DNA of 64,000 bases from Alistipes sp. (lineage in GTDB: Bacteria; Bacteroidota; Bacteroidia; Bacteroidales; Rikenellaceae): assembly GCA_017416915.1 (NCBI GenBank), contig JAFQAN010000006.1, positions 50,095 to 114,094 of the forward strand. The letters are read 5' to 3'. The translations under genes and the position numbers were made by a program. Every line of letters starts with the position of its first letter. Within the stretch, counting starts at the first letter, position 1. Positions 51,595 to 63,799 of the stretch are shown here, piece after piece. The notes below the pieces were generated by a model. It was given only the letters and a program-made list of their open reading frames with translations, searched no databases and was not told the DNA's origin.

Positions 51595-52155
51595 CTAAAT
51601 CACCGAGATAGAGCGCACGGGGGCAATCTTACGCAGACGCTCCGCACCACCCAACTCTTCAAGCTCGACGATAAAGACGAACTCCTTGACACGGATGCCA
51701 TACTCCTTGCCGTCGCGCACGATGCGCATCGCTTGGAGCGACTCTGCAAGGCTCTCGGCAGTACCACCCGTGGCGAGGACGTCATCGAGGATGGTAACCT
51801 CGAAGCAGTCGCCATTGGTCTTACCCGCAGCGATGTCGCTCAGACGGTAGTAGAGCTTGTCGCAGCCATACTCCTTCTCGATAAGCACCTCGTGTAGGTC
51901 GCCCTCGGCAAAGGGGAGCTTACCGCTCTTACGCACAGGCACGATGTTCTCCACGCCAGGCTCGGTAACGAGCAACGGAGCGGCGAAGAGGAAGCCACGA
52001 GCCTCGGGAGCCACGATATTGGGGGTTGTGCAGCACTCGCCAATCTTCTTGATAAGGGTGCTATATACCCCCTTGTTTTGCAGATAGGGGATAATATCGA
52101 CAAAGTTGATGCCCTCCTTGGGGAAATCCTTGTAAAATTTGAGTACCTCTTTCAT
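51595..52155 (-). CDS. apt: Adenine phosphoribosyltransferase
   Basis: A 186-residue type I phosphoribosyltransferase that salvages adenine to AMP using PRPP. The PRPP loop is VTILDDVLATGGTAESL (about 120-135), and the N-terminal segment APEARGFLFAAPLL supplies the base-binding region. The length is normal. Own promoter at 52180-52187, and recG lies 30 nt downstream. Confidence 0.93.
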   Translation of the reverse strand: MKEVLKFYKDFPKEGINFVDIIPYLQNKGVYSTLIKKIGECCTTPNIVAPEARGFLFAAPLLVTEPGVENIVPVRKSGKLPFAEGDLHEVLIEKEYGCDKLYYRLSDIAAGKTNGDCFEVTILDDVLATGGTAESLAESLQAMRIVRDGKEYGIRVKEFVFIVELEELGGAERLRKIAPVRSISVI

Positions 52156-52179
52156 ACTATAATATTGTAATTATTGCTA

Positions 52180-52187
52180 CAAAGATA
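52180..52187 (-). promoter_or_regulatory. Promoter -7 box for apt (and recG)
   Basis: TATCTTTG on the minus strand, 25 nt upstream of the apt start codon. The gap 52188-52350 holds nothing else recognised. Confidence 0.55.
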
Positions 52188-52356
52188 GAAAAAAGTAGGC
52201 GGAAAAGCTATGAATTAGCGAAAAATATCGCGGTTGCATACTATCTTGTAGTCGCGTTACACTAAACAGCAAAACTTCTATCCGCGTTAAAGGGGGTGGA
52301 AGAGCGCCATTTTTTGCGTTTTAAGCATCGTGCAGACGAAATAGAGTCGTGGATAA

Positions 52357-52387
52357 TTGCACATTTTATCCTTTTTTTATAAATTTG
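52357..52387 (+). promoter_or_regulatory. Promoter of the RyR-TPR-TIR operon
   Basis: TTG (52357-52359), 20-nt spacer, TAAATTTG (52380-52387). This predicts a leader of about 160 nt before the channel-like gene. Confidence 0.7.
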
Positions 52388-52554
52388 CATTTGCAGAGTG
52401 TATATGCCTCTGCGACAAATGGTCTATGGCAGCTCCTATAAATTGGGCCGGAGCGTATCGCAATAATTTCAAAAGCGACCAAAATAGAGGCTGCCAACAA
52501 CGATTTATTAATTTGTAGGAGGTACCTAATAACACCGATAAAACTAACCCATCT

Positions 52555-55077
52555 ATGCTCAATAAACTAAAAAAGGCTGCCCTTGTCATAGCTATTGCAG
52601 TCAGCTTCATTGCCATATTCTCAATACTCGGCATCATCCCCGCCCAATACATTGACCCTGTATGCAACGTCGCAGGTGGTGTAGGTCTTATATACGTAGG
52701 TTGGATGCTATGGATATGTCTCTTTGACCCGATAAAGCGCGACTGGATGATTGTGCGCGGATGGTTTGTGGCGCAGATTGTGGCCTTTGTCATATACATA
52801 CCCTTCGTGGCGACATTCATTATCCACCACACCGACAACAGCTTCTCATCATACAACATCACCTACGACGAGCTGTTATACCCCCACGAGGAGCGTGTCG
52901 GAGATGATGGCAAGATGGAGATAGCATCTACCCTCGACGCCAAGCCGCTCAAACAGCAGGAGACACCCAACCTTATATGGTCGGTATATTTTCACTACAT
53001 CGACCCAGGAAACCAAAATATGGCGATAAGCCCCAAAGGACGTACGGGCGCTGCTATAATGGCGATACTCGGCATCTTCCTACTCAACGGACTACTCATA
53101 TCGACACTAACAAGCTACTTTGACCGTCGCAAGGAGCGCTGGACAAAGGGCGAGGCTCGCTACGACTTCTTCTTTGCGCGCCGAAAACACTATATCGTAA
53201 TAGGCGGTACGGAGGTGGCGATGGGCGTTGTGGCTCAGATATTTAAGCAGCACTCCAACAATGGTATGGCAATACCATATATCTTGGTGCAGACGTCGCG
53301 CAATGTCGAGGAGTTTCGCCAAGAACTCTTCTCGACACTCAACAACGACGAACAGAAGCACACGATAATTTACTACGGCAACCGCACCTCATTAGAGGAC
53401 ATCAAGAGCCTAAAACCATACCGTGCCGAGGAGGTGTATATAATCGGCGAAAAGAGCCGCGAGAGCCGCGATGAGGGCGATGGCGAGACATATCACGACA
53501 CCTACAACATGCGCGCCTTGGAGCATATATCAAGTATATACAGCGCCGCGCGCAAGGATAACAATAAGGAGCGCCAAAAGTTGAAGTGTCGCGTGATGTT
53601 CGAGTACCAAACATCGTTCTCAATATACCAATTTGCCGACATCAGTAGCCACATAAAGAGCTTTATCGACTTCGTCCCATTCAACATCTACGAGATGTGG
53701 GCGCAGAGGGTACTCGTAAATCGCAACACACACATCGTCGCCCGCAGCCAATATCTGCCATTGGAGGGACATAAACCCATACTACGCGACTCGGACGACT
53801 ACGTACATCTAATCGTAATAGGTATGTCGCGTATGGGTACGGCGCTGGCTATCGAGGCGGCACACCTCGCCCACTACCCCAACTTCAACACTCGTAAACG
53901 TCGATCGCGCATTACCATCATCGACGATAATATGCGCCATGAAAAGGACTTTTTTATGGGTCGTTTCCGCTCGTTGTTCGATGTGGCACCACAGCGCTTT
54001 ATCGACCTCGACGCCTCAACTACCATCCCCGAGTGGTACAACCCGCTGACCGACCCCGAGTCGAAGTCGCCATACCGCGGTAACTACCTCGGCGAGGAGT
54101 TCATCGACATTGAGTGGGAGTTCGTGCAAGGCTCTATCGAATCGCCCGCCGTGCAGCAGTTTATCGCCGCAGCAGCCAACGAACAACACGTAAGACTGAG
54201 CATCGCTGTATGTATTCCCGACGCCAACAAGTCGCTTGCAGCGGCACTCTACCTGCCGCGCACGGTATTCGACAGTGCAATACAAATACTTGTAAATCAG
54301 CGTGGTGGCGACCGCCTTGTGGAGCAGATAACGCAGGAGTGTTACCACAACCCGTTCCACAACAAGCTACGCCCCTTTGGTATGGCGCGCAGTGGCTACG
54401 ACTACTCGTTAGTGCAGTTCAGCGAGCATATTGCCAGCCAGGTAAAACGCGACTATGAGGAGGCCTCAGCAGATAGCAACGGCGACATACAACGCTTTAC
54501 CGACAAGCTTATAGAGATGTTTGACGACACCAAGGCAGCAGAGCGCGCTCGCGACGTTGTGCGCCAGAATATGGAGCAGATACGAGGCGATAAAGATGCC
54601 GTAAAACTCGCCAACGAGACCATCACAGATCTTTTGGGCGAGAGGGCGCGGATATGCCTCGACTGCAACCTGCAAAGTATAGGCAAGACCGAGGCGGCAA
54701 AGAGCTGGTCGAGTATCTATAACAGCAATATGATGTGGACTAAGCTACGCAGCGCAGGTAAGATTAATGGCGAGTTAAGCGAGCAGCAGGTGTGGGACTT
54801 GGCCATTGTCGAACACAACCGCTGGAATATGGAGCAGCTACTTATGACCTATCGTCCGCTGACACGCGAGGAGCAGTTTGCGGTCTATAACAGTCAAAAT
54901 GATGAGGTCAAGGAGGTCTTCAAGGGCCGTATGGCACACTATAATATATGCTCGTGGGAGATGCTTACGGCATTAGACAATACGCTGAAAATTGATGTCT
55001 ATTACGCTAAAAAGCTTCTTGATTACCTCGCCACAGCGGAGAGTAAAGAGGCAAAAAGCGCAGCACCAAACAAGTAA
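52555..55077 (+). CDS. Channel-like membrane protein with tandem RCK-type Rossmann domains and C-terminal RyR domain
   Basis: 840 residues. Three N-terminal transmembrane helices (about 8-30, 40-57, 70-91) precede a pore-loop-like segment YFHYIDPGNQNM (145-156) and a fourth helix (165-187). Two nucleotide-binding Rossmann domains follow, starting HYIVIGGTEVAMG (about 212) and LIVIGMSRMGTALA (about 418). This order, with DPGN before the last helix, resembles CASTOR/POLLUX-type channels. The C terminus (about 740-830, VWDLAIVEHNRWNMEQ) is a degenerate RyR repeat. It heads a five-gene operon ending in a TIR protein. Channel function is inferred, not shown. Confidence 0.75.
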   Translation: MLNKLKKAALVIAIAVSFIAIFSILGIIPAQYIDPVCNVAGGVGLIYVGWMLWICLFDPIKRDWMIVRGWFVAQIVAFVIYIPFVATFIIHHTDNSFSSYNITYDELLYPHEERVGDDGKMEIASTLDAKPLKQQETPNLIWSVYFHYIDPGNQNMAISPKGRTGAAIMAILGIFLLNGLLISTLTSYFDRRKERWTKGEARYDFFFARRKHYIVIGGTEVAMGVVAQIFKQHSNNGMAIPYILVQTSRNVEEFRQELFSTLNNDEQKHTIIYYGNRTSLEDIKSLKPYRAEEVYIIGEKSRESRDEGDGETYHDTYNMRALEHISSIYSAARKDNNKERQKLKCRVMFEYQTSFSIYQFADISSHIKSFIDFVPFNIYEMWAQRVLVNRNTHIVARSQYLPLEGHKPILRDSDDYVHLIVIGMSRMGTALAIEAAHLAHYPNFNTRKRRSRITIIDDNMRHEKDFFMGRFRSLFDVAPQRFIDLDASTTIPEWYNPLTDPESKSPYRGNYLGEEFIDIEWEFVQGSIESPAVQQFIAAAANEQHVRLSIAVCIPDANKSLAAALYLPRTVFDSAIQILVNQRGGDRLVEQITQECYHNPFHNKLRPFGMARSGYDYSLVQFSEHIASQVKRDYEEASADSNGDIQRFTDKLIEMFDDTKAAERARDVVRQNMEQIRGDKDAVKLANETITDLLGERARICLDCNLQSIGKTEAAKSWSSIYNSNMMWTKLRSAGKINGELSEQQVWDLAIVEHNRWNMEQLLMTYRPLTREEQFAVYNSQNDEVKEVFKGRMAHYNICSWEMLTALDNTLKIDVYYAKKLLDYLATAESKEAKSAAPNK

Positions 55078-55090
55078 TACTCAACACGTT

Positions 55091-55378
55091 ATGAACAACT
55101 ACACACCACATCCCATAGACCTCTCTGACATTGAGCTACCCGAGGAGCTACTATCTCTCCGCGAAGATATAGCGCGCAACGTCCACGAGGCGTGGGCTGC
55201 ACAGCGCTACGCCGATGGATGGAGCTATGGCCCCGAGCGCAACGACCGCCTACGCCAGCATCCCTGCCTTGTGTCCTACGACGAGCTATCGGAGGAGGAG
55301 CGCGAATACGACCGCACAACGGCACTAAATACGCTGCGAATGATATATTATCTCGGCTTCAAAATCGAAAAACAATAA
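55091..55378 (+). CDS. Stand-alone RyR-domain protein
   Basis: A 95-residue protein made almost entirely of one RyR repeat (PF02026): PHPIDLSDIELPEELLSL, then NVHEAWAAQRYADGWSYGPERND, HPCLVSYDELSEEEREYDRTTA and LNTLRMIYYLGFKI. Every conserved block of the repeat is present. Bacterial RyR domains have been proposed to bind nucleotides; that is a family-level hypothesis. It sits 13 nt after the channel-like gene and 13 nt before the first TPR gene. The start at 55091 (ATG) removes an overlap with the preceding gene. Confidence 0.85.
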   Translation: MNNYTPHPIDLSDIELPEELLSLREDIARNVHEAWAAQRYADGWSYGPERNDRLRQHPCLVSYDELSEEEREYDRTTALNTLRMIYYLGFKIEKQ

Positions 55379-55391
55379 GAGGATATTACCA

Positions 55392-57149
55392 ATGAAACGC
55401 ATACTTACAGCCATAGTTTTCAGCCTCTTAGCACTCTCTGCCGCGGCGCAAACGCAGCGTGTAGTGGTCAAGACCCCTGGTCGTCAGCAGGATGATGGCT
55501 CGATTATTAAGGGTCAGCGCATTGCCGAGGCATACGTTACGGTGCAGGGCGGCAACACCTACGAGAGCGACACCAACGGAGAGTTGCGTATGGGTAAGCC
55601 CTCGACGGGCAAGTATCGTTTCAGCAGTGTGCGCAAGGAGGGTTACGAACTCTCCGACGCCGACTTTCTGATGCTCGACCACAACTACTCGGCGGAGAAT
55701 ACGCTATATATCAATATGGATAGCGGCGATGAGCTGCGAGCGCTAACGCGCAAGGTTGAGAATAAGGTGCGTCGCAACTATATGGCGCAACTACAAGCAA
55801 AAACCGATGAGATAGAGCGTCTTAGAGCCGAGGGCAAGACAACACGTGAGGAGTTACTGCGTATGCAGGCAGAGATAGACGCTGCGTGGGATAACTTTGA
55901 GAAGATGGTTGAGGAGAAGGCACGCGAATACCTCACCATAGACTTTGACCTAACGGATGACTTCAAGAGCGAGATTAGCTACTACATTATCAATGGTGAG
56001 TTGCAAAAGGCGGACTCGATGCTTGCCACACGTGGCGACCTCGACGAGCGTATTACTCACAATATACGACTGCGCGAACAGACTGAAAAAGAGATTGTTT
56101 CACTTGCTGAGGAGTGCTATTATAAGCACGATATATGTAGTCAGCGCTTCGAGCGCGATTCGGCGGCATATTGGTTGGAGCGCCGTGCAGAACTCGACCC
56201 CGAAAATGTGGAGTGGCTAGATGACGTGGCGCAATATGTTTATGACTTCATTGGTGATTACAATAAGGCGTTGGAGTATTACAATAAGGCGCTGAAAATA
56301 TATGAAAAGGTTTTAGGTGTAGAGCATCTTTATACTGCAACATCATACAATAATATTGGAGCGTGTTACAATAGTTTGGGCGATTACGACAAGGTGTGGG
56401 AGTATTACAATAAGGCGCTGGAAATACGAGAAAAAGTTTTAGGTACAGAGCATCCAAGTACAGCAACATCATACAATAATATTGGAGCGTGTTACGGCAA
56501 TTTGGGCGATTACGAAAATGCGTTGAAGTATCACAATAAAGCGCTGAAAATCTTTGAAAAAGTTTTGGGTACAGAGCATCCAAGTACAGCAACATCATAC
56601 AATAATATTGGAGCGTGTTACTACAATTTGGGCGATTACGACAAGGCGTTGGAGTATTACAATAAGGCGCTGAAAATACAAGAAAAAGTTTTAGGCATAG
56701 AGCATCCAAGTACCGCACTATCTTACAATAATATGGGTACGTGTTATACTAAATTGGGCGATTACGACAAGGCGTTGGAGTATTACAATAAGGCGCTGAA
56801 AATATATGAAAAGGTTTTAGGTACAGAGCATCCTGATACAGCATTCTCTTACAATAATATTGGAGTGTGTTACGACAATTTGGGCGATTACGACAAGGCT
56901 TTGGAGTATTACAATAAGGCGCTGGAAATACAAGAAAAAGTTTTGGGTACAGAGCATCCTGATACAGCATTCTCTTACAATAATATTGGAGGGTGTTACT
57001 ATAGTTTAGGCGATTACGACAAGGCGTTGGAATTTTGCGATAAGGCACTGAAAATCTTTGAAAAAGTTTTAGGCATAGAGCATCCTAATACCCAAATAGT
57101 AAAGGAGAATATTGCATACTGCCAAGAGCAATTAGAAGCAACAAAATAA
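55392..57149 (+). CDS. Exported TPR protein 1 (seven near-identical 42-aa repeats)
   Basis: 585 residues. Signal peptide (1-20, AAAQ), a beta-rich carboxypeptidase-regulatory-like module (about 21-97), a coiled coil (about 120-190), a linker with RFERDSAAYWLERRAELDPEN, then seven kinesin-light-chain-type TPR repeats of exactly 42 residues (YNNIGxCYxxLGDYDKALEYYNKALKI). The repeats are near-identical even in DNA (126-bp period) and more AT-rich than the neighbours, so they expand and contract easily. The first 97 codons almost match TPR protein 2. Probable periplasmic scaffold. Confidence 0.85.
   Translation: MKRILTAIVFSLLALSAAAQTQRVVVKTPGRQQDDGSIIKGQRIAEAYVTVQGGNTYESDTNGELRMGKPSTGKYRFSSVRKEGYELSDADFLMLDHNYSAENTLYINMDSGDELRALTRKVENKVRRNYMAQLQAKTDEIERLRAEGKTTREELLRMQAEIDAAWDNFEKMVEEKAREYLTIDFDLTDDFKSEISYYIINGELQKADSMLATRGDLDERITHNIRLREQTEKEIVSLAEECYYKHDICSQRFERDSAAYWLERRAELDPENVEWLDDVAQYVYDFIGDYNKALEYYNKALKIYEKVLGVEHLYTATSYNNIGACYNSLGDYDKVWEYYNKALEIREKVLGTEHPSTATSYNNIGACYGNLGDYENALKYHNKALKIFEKVLGTEHPSTATSYNNIGACYYNLGDYDKALEYYNKALKIQEKVLGIEHPSTALSYNNMGTCYTKLGDYDKALEYYNKALKIYEKVLGTEHPDTAFSYNNIGVCYDNLGDYDKALEYYNKALEIQEKVLGTEHPDTAFSYNNIGGCYYSLGDYDKALEFCDKALKIFEKVLGIEHPNTQIVKENIAYCQEQLEATK
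56217..57095 (+). repeat. 126-bp tandem repeats within TPR gene 1
   Basis: Successive repeat units start with TCATACAATAATATTGG-like sequence at 56343, 56469, 56595, 56721, 56847 and 56973, exactly 126 bp apart. Units share long identical runs, so homologous slippage is likely. Confidence 0.85.
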
Positions 57150-57162
57150 AAGTCAATTCACT

Positions 57163-59214
57163 ATGAAGCGCATACTTACAGCCATAGTTTTCTGTCTTTT
57201 AGCACTCTCTGCCGCGGCGCAGACGCAGCGTGTAGTGGTCAAGACCCCTGGTCGTCAGCAGGATGACGGCTCTATTACGAAGGGTCAGCGCATTGCCGAG
57301 GCGTACGTTACCGTACAGGGCGGCAACACCTACGAGAGCGACACCAACGGAGAGTTACGTATGGGTAAGCCCTCGACGGGTAAGTATCGTTTCAGCAGTG
57401 TGCGCAAGGAGGGCTACGAACTCTCCGACGCCGACTTTCTGATGCGCAGTTACATCTACTCCGATGTGGAGCCGCTATATATCACCCTCGTAAAGCCCTC
57501 GGAGCAGCTCGAAGTGCAGCTACACGCCGAGCAGAAGGTACGCAGGACATTGAAACAGCAGCTCGAAAGGGTTGAGAGCGAGATTGAGAGGCAGTACGAG
57601 GCACAGAAGATCACAGAGGAGGAGTACTACCAGCGCTTACAGCTGGTGTATGATGATATTGAGCGTAACGACAAGCTAATAGGCTATATGTCGGAGAGGT
57701 ATGCAGGGCTTGACTTTGATTGTATGGATGAGTTTAACCGTGAACTTAACCGACTTATAATCAACGGAGACCTTGCCGAGGCAGACTCACTTCTAATTAC
57801 GGCGGGCGACATTGAGAGTGAGTATGCGGCACTATTGCGCCATCGTGCCATAAACCAAAAGTTGCACCACGACTTGGAGCAGAGCGAGGAGTTTACACGC
57901 AGACGTATCGAGGATATTGCGAGCCGCTGTTATAGCAAGCATCAGATACACAGCTTGCGCTACGAGCGCGACTCGGCAGCCTACTACTTGGAGCTACGCG
58001 CAGAGCTTGACCCCGAAAATATGGAGTGGCAGGTTGAATTAGCCGAGTACCTCATAGAGTATATTGCTGATTATGATACAGCTTTAACAATATACGACAA
58101 GGCTGTGGCAAAAAGCATTGAGATTAATGGCGAAAAGCATCCCGAGACCGCAGACATACTGGGTCTAATGGGCTTATGCTGCCAATACTCCAAGGAGTAT
58201 GACAAGGCGGCAGAGTGCTACAACAGAGCCTTGGATATAAACGTAGAACTTTTCGGCGAAGAACACGAACGCACCGCCATAACATATAAGTATCTGGGAG
58301 AGTACTACACTGGGCTAAACGATTTCAGCAAAGCGGAAGAGTATTTCAACAAGGCATTATACATCCAACAAAAAGTCTTGGGCAAAAAACATAGCGACAA
58401 CGCAACACTATACAACTCTCTCGGAAGCAATTATAATTTTTTAGGCGATTACAATGCCGCTATAAAATACTACAAAAAGGCGCTTGCAATACAAGAGAAG
58501 ATAGACCTAAATCACGCCAATACAGCGATGTCATACGAGGGCATAGGCAGCTGCTACGAGGCGTTGGAGGAGTTTGACAAAGCGTTGGAGTATTACAATA
58601 AAGCGTTGGATATCAATATAGAAGTCGTCGGATTGAATCATCAGCATACGGCGATGACATATAGTCTTATAGGGCGGTGTTATGAGTGTCTAAATAGCTA
58701 CAAAACAGCTCTCTCATACTACTCCAAAGCGTTGGACATCAATGTTACGATATATGGCGAGGAACATCCTCACACATCAATTGTGTATAGTTGCATAGGC
58801 AGATGCTACGAGAATATGTACGAGTATGATACAGCCCTTTTGCATTATCACAAAGCGCTGGATATCACGATAAAATGTAACGGTAAGATGAGTTTGGAAA
58901 CCGCTACTACATATATGATGATTGGTATGTTCTACTTTAAGTTGGAGCAGGTGGATTGTGCATTGGAGTACCTACTTTTAGCAGAGTCTGCCTACGTTGG
59001 CTCGAACGATCCCGAAACGCCATCAATGATGCCTCTGAGGTTGTACGAAGGTATTGGAATGTGCTATGGGGTATTAGGCGATATTAAGAGAACATACGAG
59101 TATCTCGAAAAGGCTCTCAACATAGCAGAGACGACACTCACAGAGAATGACCCAACGTATCAAAATTTACAGTTGCTGGTAGAGAAGTTAAGACCATACG
59201 TATATTTTAACTAA
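57163..59214 (+). CDS. Exported TPR protein 2
   Basis: 683 residues. Signal peptide and N-terminal beta module (1-97) nearly identical to TPR protein 1, then diverging right after DADFLM. A coiled coil (about 120-180) and the shared linker (RYERDSAAYYLELRAELDPEN) precede about ten more diverged TPR units (LGLMGLCCQYSKEYDKAAECYNRAL and similar), which are not identical in DNA. It lies 13 nt after TPR protein 1. It may bind the partner proteins of the operon. Confidence 0.85.
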   Translation: MKRILTAIVFCLLALSAAAQTQRVVVKTPGRQQDDGSITKGQRIAEAYVTVQGGNTYESDTNGELRMGKPSTGKYRFSSVRKEGYELSDADFLMRSYIYSDVEPLYITLVKPSEQLEVQLHAEQKVRRTLKQQLERVESEIERQYEAQKITEEEYYQRLQLVYDDIERNDKLIGYMSERYAGLDFDCMDEFNRELNRLIINGDLAEADSLLITAGDIESEYAALLRHRAINQKLHHDLEQSEEFTRRRIEDIASRCYSKHQIHSLRYERDSAAYYLELRAELDPENMEWQVELAEYLIEYIADYDTALTIYDKAVAKSIEINGEKHPETADILGLMGLCCQYSKEYDKAAECYNRALDINVELFGEEHERTAITYKYLGEYYTGLNDFSKAEEYFNKALYIQQKVLGKKHSDNATLYNSLGSNYNFLGDYNAAIKYYKKALAIQEKIDLNHANTAMSYEGIGSCYEALEEFDKALEYYNKALDINIEVVGLNHQHTAMTYSLIGRCYECLNSYKTALSYYSKALDINVTIYGEEHPHTSIVYSCIGRCYENMYEYDTALLHYHKALDITIKCNGKMSLETATTYMMIGMFYFKLEQVDCALEYLLLAESAYVGSNDPETPSMMPLRLYEGIGMCYGVLGDIKRTYEYLEKALNIAETTLTENDPTYQNLQLLVEKLRPYVYFN

Positions 59215-59244
59215 AATATTACCACACTTAAAACACAAAACTAA

Positions 59245-60375
59245 ATGCAAACCGAGTATAAATATTTTGCCTTTATAAGCTACAACAGCCGTGATGTTCG
59301 TTGGGGTAAGCGCCTGCAACGAAAGCTCGAAGAGTACCGTATGCCAGCGACACTATGTAGCGAGCGCGGCTGGGAGCGTAAACCACTTAAACCCATATTC
59401 TTCGCGCCAACAGACATACAGGTAGGCGAGCTGAACGAGGAGCTGAAAAGCCGCCTCAGCGCATCACGTCATCTTATCGTCATCTGCTCGCCCAATGCCG
59501 CGCAGTCGGAGTGGGTGGGGCGTGAGATAAGCTATTTCCACAGCCTCGGACGCAGCAAAAACATACACTTCTTCATCATCGAGGGTACTCCCAACAGCAG
59601 CGACCCCCGCGAGGAGTGCTTCAACCCCGTGATTAAAGAGCTTGGGCTGGATGGTGTGCTTGGAGCTAACATCAACGAGAAGAACTACACCCTCAAACGC
59701 CTTAACCGTGAGCGCGCCTACGTGCAACTGATAACAACGCTACTCAATGTCGAGTTCGACAGCGTCTGGCAGCGCCACCGTCGCCTGCTTATACGTCGCG
59801 CAATAACCGCCGTCTGCACCATTATCGTCGTAATTGCCGCCATAGTGTGGGCGTGGAGCATTAACCGCCCGACAGACATCACGCTGCACCTGAGCGAGAC
59901 GACAACTGAGAACGACAGCCTACCACCGCTCTGTAACGGAACGGCGACGCTCTACCTCGATAACGACATCATCACAAAGAGTATCGCCGATGGCAGCCGC
60001 GAGATACTATTTCCCAACATCCCGCGCAACAAGCTCGGCAGCAAGGTGCGCATAACCCTTAGCGGCGACAACTACTACCCCACGGAGGCTACACAGACCC
60101 TCGACGAGCAGATGACGCTCAGCATCACACGCGACACACTGCTCTACGGCGATGTATGCTTCCGCCTACGCGATGCGCAGACGACAAAACCCATTGCGGG
60201 CTGCCGCGTCGAGATTGGCGGCATTGAGACGACGAGCGATGTAGAGGGCATAGTAAGATTGTATATCCCCGTAGCACAGCAGCGCAAAGCATACAATATC
60301 GTAGCGGAGCGCGAATTGGACCGCACGACGCTGACAATGCCATCGGGAGACAACGTCGTATTCTTCTGCAAGTAG
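59245..60375 (+). CDS. TIR-domain protein with membrane anchor and C-terminal beta domain
   Basis: 376 residues. N-terminal TIR domain (about 5-150): KYFAFISYNSRDVRWGKRLQ (box 1), then SASRHLIVICSPNAAQSEWVGREISYF, where E94 sits at the position of the catalytic Glu of TIR NADases, although proof is lacking. A transmembrane helix (about 188-206) is followed by an extracytoplasmic beta domain (about 215-376) with a CarboxypepD-reg-like segment (GDVCFRLRDAQTTKPIAGC). The TIR domain should face the cytoplasm. It ends the operon, 30 nt after TPR protein 2. Similar TIR proteins occur in bacterial signalling and defence loci. Confidence 0.85.
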   Translation: MQTEYKYFAFISYNSRDVRWGKRLQRKLEEYRMPATLCSERGWERKPLKPIFFAPTDIQVGELNEELKSRLSASRHLIVICSPNAAQSEWVGREISYFHSLGRSKNIHFFIIEGTPNSSDPREECFNPVIKELGLDGVLGANINEKNYTLKRLNRERAYVQLITTLLNVEFDSVWQRHRRLLIRRAITAVCTIIVVIAAIVWAWSINRPTDITLHLSETTTENDSLPPLCNGTATLYLDNDIITKSIADGSREILFPNIPRNKLGSKVRITLSGDNYYPTEATQTLDEQMTLSITRDTLLYGDVCFRLRDAQTTKPIAGCRVEIGGIETTSDVEGIVRLYIPVAQQRKAYNIVAERELDRTTLTMPSGDNVVFFCK

Positions 60376-60507
60376 GGTAATTCCTCCGCAGGCAAATATT
60401 TATAGCAGATAATATTTCGGGACTGGCAACACCGCGATTAAGCATTCGTCGCCACTGATATTTGTGTCAATTTTCCACTTATCGAAGGCTATCCCACTAT
60501 CCCTCTT

Positions 60508-61998
60508 CTATTTACGCTTCGAGAAGAGCAGCAATGATGTGAAGCAGAGCGCAGCGTTAAGCACAATTATCTCGTAACTGAACGTATAGCCACCGAGCCA
60601 CGCCTCGGAGTGCGCACTGACAATGTAGCACACCACGGGGACTACGACAGCAACAATGGGCGGAGCGTAGCGAAGCGGTAGGCGGCGTGTGCAGAGACCA
60701 AAGGCAAACAGTCCCAAGATGGGACCATAGGTGTAGCCCGCAACGGTGAAGATGAGCTTTATCACGCCGCTACTGCTGAACAGCTCAAAGCAGATGATAA
60801 TCAGCGTCATCGCAACAGCGATAAGGGTGTGTATCCTATGGCGCAAGGTGCTTAATCGCTCCTCCGCGAGGCTCTTGCCACCCATAATATCGAGCGTAAA
60901 CGATGTCGTCAGCGCCGTGAGTGCCGACCCCGCCGATGTATATGTCGAGGCGATAAGTCCGAGCAGAAAGAGGATACCCACAACCATAGGCAGTCCGCAC
61001 TCGGTGGCCACATAGCCAAATAGGTCATCGCCACGTGCCACCACTACACTCCCCGAGGCGTCTGTAAGGGGCATCGCACCCCCCGTAGCGGAGATGCCGC
61101 GCCCAGCCAAATAGAGGTAGAAGAGCGCACCAAGCATCAAGAAGAGCAAGATGACAACGCTCTGCAACACTATCGACGACATCATACCTCGCTGCGCATC
61201 GCGCCGACTGCGACACGAGAGCATCGTCTGCATCATATCCTGATCCAAGCCCGTCATCGCCACAACGAGAAATATGCCTGCTACAAACTGCTTCCAGAAG
61301 TATCTGCTATCCAGCGGGTTATCAAAGAAGAAGATGTCCGACAGGTGGCTATCGGCGACTGCCGCCACAGCACCTCCCACATCGAGGTTCATATCGCCGA
61401 TAACGAAGACTATACACGCCACGATGCTACCCACCATAAGTAGCGTCTTCATCATCTCGGTCCACACCACCGACCTCACGCCTCCGTGCCGCGTATAGAG
61501 CCATACGAGCAACATCATAAGTGCTGCATTTACCGCAAAGGGGATATTGTAGCCATCGAAGAGGAGCGCTTGCAGCACCACGCAGACGACGTATGCGCGC
61601 AACGACGCCGAGGCAATCTTTGCCACAAAAAAGAGCCACGCCCCCGTACGGTGTGCCACACCGCCAAAGCGGCTATCGAGGTACTCGTACAGCGACACCA
61701 CGCCCAAACGGTAGTAGAGCGGTATCAGCACCGTAGAGATGATGACGTAGCCCACAAAGAAGCCCAACGTGGTTTGCAGATATGAAAAACCGTCGGTAAG
61801 CACCGTACCTGGCACCGAGATATAGGTTACGCCCGACATTGCAGCACCCACCATAGCGATAGATGCAACAAGGCGCGGCGTGGTACGCCCACCCGTAAAG
61901 AAGGTGGCATTATCGCCCTTGCGCGCAGCACGACGTGCCACCACAAAGAGCAGGGCAAGATAGCCGCAAAGGGTGAGTATTATCGCTACGGACGACAT
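60508..61998 (-). CDS. Sodium:solute symporter family transporter
   Basis: 496 residues with about 13 hydrophobic helices, first helix SVAIILTLCGYLALLFVVARRAARKG, then FFTGGRTTPRLVASIAMVGAAMSGVTYISVPG, the SSF signature region, and GLDQDMMQTMLSCRSRRDAQRGM. It couples solute uptake to Na+; substrate unknown. Its stop faces the TIR gene. The FAD oxidoreductase gene lies just upstream (9 nt), so the two are probably co-transcribed. Confidence 0.9.
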   Translation of the reverse strand: MSSVAIILTLCGYLALLFVVARRAARKGDNATFFTGGRTTPRLVASIAMVGAAMSGVTYISVPGTVLTDGFSYLQTTLGFFVGYVIISTVLIPLYYRLGVVSLYEYLDSRFGGVAHRTGAWLFFVAKIASASLRAYVVCVVLQALLFDGYNIPFAVNAALMMLLVWLYTRHGGVRSVVWTEMMKTLLMVGSIVACIVFVIGDMNLDVGGAVAAVADSHLSDIFFFDNPLDSRYFWKQFVAGIFLVVAMTGLDQDMMQTMLSCRSRRDAQRGMMSSIVLQSVVILLFLMLGALFYLYLAGRGISATGGAMPLTDASGSVVVARGDDLFGYVATECGLPMVVGILFLLGLIASTYTSAGSALTALTTSFTLDIMGGKSLAEERLSTLRHRIHTLIAVAMTLIIICFELFSSSGVIKLIFTVAGYTYGPILGLFAFGLCTRRLPLRYAPPIVAVVVPVVCYIVSAHSEAWLGGYTFSYEIIVLNAALCFTSLLLFSKRK

Positions 61999-63707: not shown

Positions 63708-63789
63708 GCGGATATGGTGTAATTGGTAGCCACGTCAGACTTAGGATCTGATGCCGAGAGGCGTGGGGGTTCGAGTCCCTTTATCCGCA
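63708..63789 (+). tRNA. tRNA-Leu, anticodon TAG
   Basis: 82 nt without encoded CCA. The acceptor stem is GCGGATA/TATCCGC, the anticodon arm TCAGA-CTTAGGA-TCTGA gives anticodon TAG (Leu), and a class II variable arm (TGCCGAGAGGCGT) and T-arm GGGGGTTCGAGTCCCT are present. No intron. Confidence 0.95.
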
Positions 63790-63799
63790 CAAGGTTTGA

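Follow-up and report, generated by a model that had tools for sequence, protein, structure and literature searches.

A candidate TIR-to-RyR signalling operon with a channel-family protein in Alistipes

A 64,000-nucleotide (nt) stretch of an Alistipes sp. genome (assembly GCA_017416915.1, contig JAFQAN010000006.1, positions 50,095 to 114,094; hereafter the window) carries five genes, all on the forward strand and present as a set (52555-60375), that encode a channel-family protein, a small protein consisting of one RyR domain (the solo RyR protein), two exported TPR proteins and a membrane-anchored TIR protein (Table 1). As read from its sequence, this operon probably makes a signalling nucleotide by its TIR enzyme and reads it by RyR-type domains, one of which is located on an ion channel. 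From the channel through the TIR gene the intergenic gaps are 13, 13, 13 and 30 nt, according to the coordinates and the junction sequence, which bears out the five genes of mostly 13-nt spacing described in a first-pass annotation of this DNA. A single promoter for the five genes is plausible: a TATAAATTTG box, which we take to match the Bacteroidota promoter consensus, lies ahead of the channel gene, and no forward-strand terminator was found when 52100-60700 was scanned. The operon is real and a chance gathering of its genes is excluded, because the set recurs in other families. More specifically, the gene content is common to the stretches L055, L070, L071 with L150, L077, and L097 with L098; the order of the five genes, whose conservation the first-pass annotation had named as a point to check, is not.

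The recurrence is seen most directly through the window TIR protein, which was searched in 180 genomes of the genus and 295 of the order. Its family occurs in 10 of the 180 genus genomes, and close full-length orthologues (48-52% identity) are found in eight genomes including that of the window. Six of these eight (the window, G003, G156, G237, G351 and G039) share a locus with RyR and channel-type genes, and these six loci cover the family codes f1, f2, f4 and f102; the set in G351 is spread over about 20 kb, and the shared locus in G039 is presumed across two contig ends (L071 and L150). A TPR-family gene adjoins the TIR gene in all eight, counting a gene of only 211 amino acids (aa) in G414 and one about 0.34 kb off, on the next stretch, in G351. 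The remaining two genomes, G414 and G329, possess a TIR orthologue and gave no RyR match anywhere in the genome. Co-occurrence of a window-type TIR with RyR (6 of 8 genomes versus 68 of 474 overall) has a P of 1.6e-4, uncorrected for phylogeny.

The pore is not the same in all of these loci. The DxGN channel of the window is missing from the RyR-TPR-TIR set of G003 (L055), G039 (L071) and G237 (L077), which belong to family codes f1, f4 and f102. The channel is replaced there by an MscS-type protein and a separate soluble Rossmann-RyR protein of 368-409 aa that aligns to the second Rossmann domain of the channel and to its RyR-like part. The MscS assignment comes from L077 (PF00924, 1.8e-9), the sole one of the three given to Pfam. 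The L071 and L077 MscS proteins share 67% identity, and that of L055 is 34-40% identical to both. No other match above 35% to the L077 protein was found in the 295 order genomes, and none above 38% to the L055 protein in the 180 genus genomes, where ordinary MscS proteins reach 38%. A single subfamily of the three proteins was rejected, as the L055 protein is no nearer to the other two than ordinary MscS proteins of the genus are. MscS may have been recruited twice, because the L055 protein is distant from those of L071 and L077 and close matches elsewhere were not found. A further type consists of RCK-RyR membrane proteins without a DxGN loop (L061, L068, L070, L081-L084, L098, L110 and others). 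No other argument in the analysis is as strong as this one: the pore changes while the RyR part stays constant, which suggests that RyR carries the input of a membrane effector.

RyR genes were found in 44 of 180 genus, 25 of 295 order and 27 of 395 phylum-sample genomes, with one match in the window's own genome (G000). The surroundings of 58 solo RyR genes, that of the window included, were surveyed on 57 stretches (all sequences distinct; 7 of the 58 lie less than 3 kb from a stretch end). A channel-family gene is found on the same strand within 500 nt of 29 solo RyR genes and within 3 kb of 36, and 20 of these 36 channel-family genes are of the DxGN type. TIR genes, labelled by hidden Markov models (HMMs) built on operon members, occur within 3 kb of 16 and within 8 kb of 22 of the 58, one of the 22 being that of L083, whose TIR label Pfam does not bear out; 8 have neither a channel-family nor a TIR gene within 8 kb. 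The N-terminal motif is present in 22 of the 32 TIR-labelled genes within 8 kb, and by motif alone the TIR counts are 15/58 within 3 kb and 20/58 within 8 kb. Among the ten motif-less genes, seven were given to Pfam: six match TIR_2 above the cut-off, four of these being SIR2-TIR proteins, and the one of L083 fails. The TIR motif is carried by 23 of the 264 other genes that lie in RyR operons, as against 0 of 459 elsewhere on the same stretches (genes of at least 120 aa, window left out; P 4.6e-11); the stretches counted are not independent samples, and some are near-identical (L059, L123).

Several TIR-related proteins of other architecture were observed in this survey. SIR2_2-TIR fusions lie near solo RyR genes at L069:666-2123, L072:8646-9971, L073:10886-12343 and L116:10743-12110, the SIR2_2 match in L069 being slightly below the cut-off; SIR2 and TIR are domains of NAD-consuming type known from anti-phage systems. 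Two genes upstream of another solo RyR gene, L121:11409-14672 encodes a protein of 1087 aa in which transglutaminase-like, protein kinase and TIR domains are combined. The gene at L083:5086-6171, upstream of TPR, RCK-RyR and RyR genes, encodes a membrane protein resembling the C-terminal half of the window TIR protein; Pfam gave no TIR domain for it and only CarboxypepD_reg at 7.7e-5, below the cut-off.

The solo RyR protein is an unambiguous member of its domain family. Its gene starts at the ATG at 55091 (the listed open reading frame begins upstream, at a TTG at 54992), and the product matches Pfam RyR (PF02026, 1.3e-33) over domain positions 1-91 of 91, as expected of the pure RyR protein proposed at first pass. 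In the PDB it matches 3nrt (6.2e-35), a putative bacterial ryanodine-receptor protein, and RyR Repeat12 chains. The reference for its candidate ligand pocket is RyDEP gp78 of phage DyoEdafos (L186), in which residues H75, W78, H100 and D117 contact 3' cyclic ADP-ribose (3'cADPR), according to a preprint (PMC13232231). The preprint also reports that one phage RyR protein cleaves 2'/3'cADPR and that, of eight homologues, six bind it and do not cleave it. These four residues align to H32, W35, H57 and D74 of the solo RyR protein at identical spacing, and to H754, W757, H795 and D814 of the channel. Their equivalents are present in 67, 67, 44 and 63 of 67 RyR domains and in 51, 52, 49 and 51 of 52 channel C-termini; the C-terminal set was cut by the motif E[HK]x[RH]W, so that the conservation of H75 and W78 there is partly built in, and that of H100 and D117 is not. 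Solo RyR proteins keep H100 in 40 of 44 cases and D117 in all 44, and 23 solo RyR proteins were also aligned for the pocket residues of the window protein. The idea, cited at first pass, that bacterial RyR domains bind nucleotides thus gains a candidate site, in that the RyR domains of the window keep the pocket residues of a 2'/3'cADPR-binding protein. RyR domains related to the window protein are encoded in 208 phage records, and those of MT837259 and MT836850, from human faecal samples, are 50-53% identical over nearly the full length.

The channel-family protein has hydrophobic helices at residues 10-28, 39-57, 72-90 and 167-185 by hydropathy; two weaker peaks, at 212-230 and 417-435, belong to Rossmann strands. 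The segment WSVYFHYIDPGNQ occupies residues 142-154, ahead of the fourth helix. The DxGN loop is present in 24 of 52 related channel-family genes, and two more have DPGS or NQGS; in alignment A1, whose members were chosen by the motif [DN][PAQ]G[NS], the conservation of D, G and N says little. Because the 840-aa protein alone matches no Pfam family above the cut-off, its RCK and RyR parts are visible only through family members and profile-profile matches. At E values up to 0.1, Slo-like_RCK is matched by 12 of 26 family members and Pfam RyR by 4 of 26, with a best value of 4.5e-7. The motif-cut C-termini match RyR with an hhalign probability of 98.9, and the full-length unanchored profile matches it at 743-819 with a probability of 82 (P 1e-5), hhalign E values being those of a single comparison each. 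Judged from these profiles, the channel C-terminus is homologous to the RyR domain at the level of the family. A channel search of plasmids gave no match, one of viral contigs gave 13 pattern matches with zero confirmed, and a scan of a genome contig collection gave one relative (L025).

The window TIR protein matches TIR_2 (3.8e-9) and ThsB_TIR (3.9e-7; 30.8 bits against a cut-off of 21.2). Its E94, presumably the catalytic glutamate by comparison with SARM1-type TIRs, is invariant in 8 of 8 aligned TIRs, and by hydropathy a single helix (186-204) follows the domain; the membrane TIR with a likely catalytic glutamate of the first-pass annotation is upheld in both respects. PADLOC gave ThsB models (the best at 5.1e-6, a partial match) and one SAVED-TIR model at 0.0069, and gave nothing for the channel or the solo RyR protein. 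A PDB profile search with the TIR alignment gave nothing at 0.01, and the single TIR domain matched the TLR2 TIR at 0.0028. Both TPR proteins have a signal-peptide-like helix at the N-terminus, by hydropathy alone. The 5' ends of their genes are near-identical (296 of 330 nt, 55392-55721 versus 57163-57492) and their TPR arrays differ; this identity indicates that one gene arose recently by partial duplication of the other. PADLOC assigned TPR models, C3a156 and PDC-S28 to the TPR proteins. Homology of the periplasmic part of the TIR protein with the TPR N-terminal domain was rejected (hhalign probability 1.2).

Table 1. Features of the operon in the window
Feature	Position	Strand	Basis and remarks
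Promoter-like site (TTG ... TATAAATTTG), Bacteroidota type	52357..52387	+	Predicted from sequence; TATAAATTTG box at about 52378-52387
Channel-family protein, 840 aa	52555..55077	+	Four transmembrane (TM) helices with a pore loop, two RCK-type Rossmann domains and an RyR-like part at the C-terminus
Pore helix and filter-like DPGN	52972..53019	+	Residues 140-155, D150; predicted from sequence
RyR-like C-terminal part of channel (H754, W757, H795, D814)	54781..55074	+	hhalign, residue alignment
Solo RyR protein, 95 aa (H32, W35, H57, D74)	55091..55378	+	Pfam RyR 1.3e-33, PDB matches, residue alignment
Exported TPR protein A, 585 aa	55392..57149	+	TPR_12 1.7e-136; N-terminal hydrophobic helix
Exported TPR protein B, 683 aa, partial duplicate of A	57163..59214	+	TPR_12 2.3e-64
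Membrane-anchored TIR protein, 376 aa	59245..60375	+	TIR_2 and ThsB_TIR above Pfam cut-off
TIR domain, predicted cytoplasmic, likely catalytic E94 (SEWVGREI)	59257..59604	+	E94 invariant in alignment
Single TM helix, TIR residues 186-204	59800..59856	+	Hydropathy; C-terminal part of about 170 aa predicted periplasmic

Starting from the observed gene content, motifs, residue conservation and linkage, we infer the biochemical steps of a circuit from TIR signal to channel, for and against which our judgement is evenly divided. Sensing would fall to the two exported TPR proteins together with the periplasmic region of the TIR protein, and the cue, such as phage entry or damage to the envelope, would arise beyond the inner membrane. 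The TIR domain, to judge from its conserved glutamate and from TIR biochemistry, would then convert NAD+ to an ADP-ribose (ADPR) signal, most likely a cyclic ADPR isomer. This signal would be bound by the C-terminal RyR part of the tandem-RCK channel, in the four-residue pocket matching that of RyDEP, and the gating ring would open a CASTOR-like DxGN cation pore. Ions, probably including Ca2+, would cross the inner membrane, and their flow would halt growth or infection. The solo RyR protein would buffer or hydrolyse the signal, setting the threshold or resetting the circuit, as phage RyDEP does against Thoeris. The most specific form of this proposal, that a cyclic ADPR isomer made by the TIR protein directly gates an RyR-domain channel with a CASTOR-type pore in an immune or stress circuit, is held only tentatively.

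Several results weigh against the circuit. A channel-family gene, a TIR gene and a solo RyR gene are rarely found together: TIR is within 3 kb in 7 of the 36 cases with a channel-family gene and within 8 kb in 11. Solo RyR genes without a channel-family gene have TIR within 3 kb in 9 of 22 cases, and the comparison of 7/36 with 9/22 indicates no positive association of channel with TIR genes around solo RyR genes. When genes are counted by distance, the TIR enrichment within five genes is weak (20/488 versus 3/235 beyond, P 0.04). TIR-TPR pairs without RyR occur on seven stretches (L151-L154, L157, L159 and L162), five of which (L153, L154, L157, L159 and L162) carry more distant TIR relatives; two genomes with such relatives, G245 and G412, carry RyR elsewhere. 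TIR-TPR is thus the tighter pair, and RyR-channel a module that joins it at times. As to the channel itself, the RyR HMM does not match the window protein alone, and both AlphaFold models (the channel model with a pLDDT of 40) are too poor for a pore or an RyR fold to be recognized. Some RyR domains may also read other nucleotides, as the Pycsar-like cluster of a Priestia plasmid (L187, NZ_CP128553.1 55612-69890) suggests. There a solo RyR gene lies 16 nt behind the gene of a TPR-S protein that carries a cyclase annotation (a Pfam cyclase match of only 0.028), the apparent operon includes the Pycsar effector PycTM, and a TIR protein is encoded on the opposite strand. The cross-count of channel and TIR lowers confidence both in the mechanism and in direct gating by cyclic ADPR. 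The first-pass hypothesis that TIR-made signals gate an RyR channel is thus upheld as to the repeated linkage of RyR to channel and TIR genes, and set back by the rarity of the full set.

In one alternative the ligand of the RyR domains and the channel is a nucleotide other than the product of the window TIR (candidates are ADPR, NAD(H), cyclic pyrimidines and metabolites of the host), and the TIR-TPR and RyR-channel genes are neighbours as two modules of a common mobile repertoire. Each module is found without the other. The solo RyR gene beside the annotated cyclase, PycTM and TPR-S on the Priestia plasmid is also in keeping with it. So are RyR domains fused behind a C39-peptidase-like domain (L025, L057, L060, L063, L078-L080, L101, L104, L109, L136 and others; in L057 Peptidase_C39_2 at 0.0032, below the cut-off). 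A conserved gene of 180-200 aa, sigma-factor-like by eye and with nothing in Pfam, stands before them in 22 of 24 loci. The fusions keep H100 in only 4 of 23 cases, this phosphate-contacting histidine being threonine in 17; they look like a separate RyR system. The tight spacing of the window operon and the locus shared with RyR and channel-family genes by six of eight close TIR orthologues, over four family codes, weigh against this alternative, which is judged unlikely.

Many bacterial TIRs deplete NAD+ directly, and the TIR protein could itself be a toxin that drains NAD+ once triggered and stops growth, with the channel and RyR proteins as guard or reset. The conserved glutamate and the SIR2-TIR fusions near other solo RyR genes are in agreement with this; it is nevertheless rather improbable, as it does not account for the various kinds of membrane protein to which RyR is linked time and again, in most cases with no TIR close by.

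The same circuit could serve envelope or ion stress and not phage defence, as might be expected from the exported TPR partners, the housekeeping-like neighbours of the window operon and the PrsW-type intramembrane protease genes that adjoin RyR genes in six related loci (L055, with PF13367 at 3.6e-38, and by clustering L098, L109, L110, L114 and L116). The patchy presence of RyR (44 of 180 genus genomes) and of the window TIR family (10 of 180) resembles, in contrast, that of accessory conflict genes. Plasmids gave 10 RyR matches, and the three loci opened lie by Pycsar-like genes, by restriction and integrase genes, and among phage baseplate genes; a stress role in place of phage defence is judged decidedly improbable. 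In the second of these plasmid loci, from Arcobacter (L189, CP146529.1 41424-55615), TrkA_N, RyR and DUF4062 proteins are encoded consecutively, and genes for type I restriction and for an integrase lie nearby. That the five genes are neighbours by accident and have no common function is scarcely credible: the exact order is not conserved and no positive link joins channel to TIR around solo RyR genes, but the same content recurs in several families and the pores are exchanged.

Comparison with known systems places the circuit near Thoeris without identity to it. The window TIR passes the Pfam ThsB_TIR cut-off and is encoded beside a candidate nucleotide-sensing effector; unlike Thoeris, the operon has an RyR sensor domain, a tandem-RCK channel (an MscS pore in relatives) and exported TPR partners. 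No SIR2, SLOG or macro domain is among the matches listed for the five proteins (for TPR protein A the best 25 of 53 Pfam and 25 of 32 NCBIfam matches). Because no ThsA was found in its sequence, the operon is by definition not Thoeris. By analogy it may work like Thoeris with TM-macro ThsA effectors, which are described as membrane proteins binding ADPR products (PMC11204291). With RyDEP the solo RyR protein shares the Pfam RyR domain and the four ligand residues at identical spacing; the window gene belongs to a host and lies beside TIR and channel genes, whereas RyDEP is an anti-Thoeris protein of a phage. The available part of the RyDEP preprint (PMC13232231) speculates on animal RyRs and contains no account of host RyR-channel-TIR operons.

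The channel resembles CASTOR, POLLUX and DMI1 in its four TM helices, the DxGN filter-like loop before the last helix and the predicted RCK-type domains, and differs from them in its added RyR C-terminus and in being encoded with a TIR. Four TM helices are also the topology of CASTOR. CASTOR is among the structural matches of the window channel; its profile match is in register with the first RCK domain and weak (E 0.27, not significant by itself). The CASTOR filter is ADS(A)GNHA, with D265 essential, and the three proteins are plant nuclear Ca2+ channels (PMC6697748). The solo RyR protein matches animal RyR2 at 1.7e-56, summed over four stretches, and the Repeat12 domain of animal RyRs has a site that binds adenine nucleotides (PMC12627627); animal RyRs have an unrelated pore, and are channels of 5000 aa as against a single domain of 95 aa. 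RyR, TIR, TPR-S and channel-like domains were reportedly predicted by Burroughs and others in 2015 to form nucleotide-centred conflict systems, the link of RyR to TIR being computational. Among the titles and abstracts listed for literature open without subscription, none reports a TIR-RyR-channel operon.

The window operon is flanked by recG and apt on one side and by symporter and oxidoreductase genes on the other, as read by eye. These neighbours look like housekeeping genes and no defence island is visible by eye around the operon, which answers in the negative the first-pass suggestion to look for one. The apt-recG order is conserved in five close relatives. No clean empty site was found among the relatives compared; in G017, apt is followed by other genes and then by the oxidoreductase and symporter genes, without the operon. 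A tRNA-Leu gene is located at 63708-63790, about 3.3 kb downstream.

TIR enzymes that make ADPR signals were already known. Phage RyR proteins that bind such TIR-made signals are described in the 2026 preprint (PMC13232231). The operon and its relatives bring together, in the host, a TIR enzyme, RyR proteins and membrane proteins that bear RyR, and the pore differs from lineage to lineage. If the circuit is true, RyR would be a portable cyclic ADPR receptor on at least three membrane proteins (the tandem-RCK DxGN channel, the RCK-RyR proteins without DxGN, and MscS), and the solo RyR protein would be a host off-switch and a possible source of the anti-Thoeris RyDEP proteins of phages. If binding holds, TIR signalling would gain an ion-channel output, the role of host RyR domains would be explained, and the action of cyclic ADPR on RyR domains would become testable with small bacterial proteins. 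The operon may thus be a bacterial relative of the disputed link between cyclic ADPR and the ryanodine receptor of animals, for which it would, if the circuit is true, provide a bacterial precedent.

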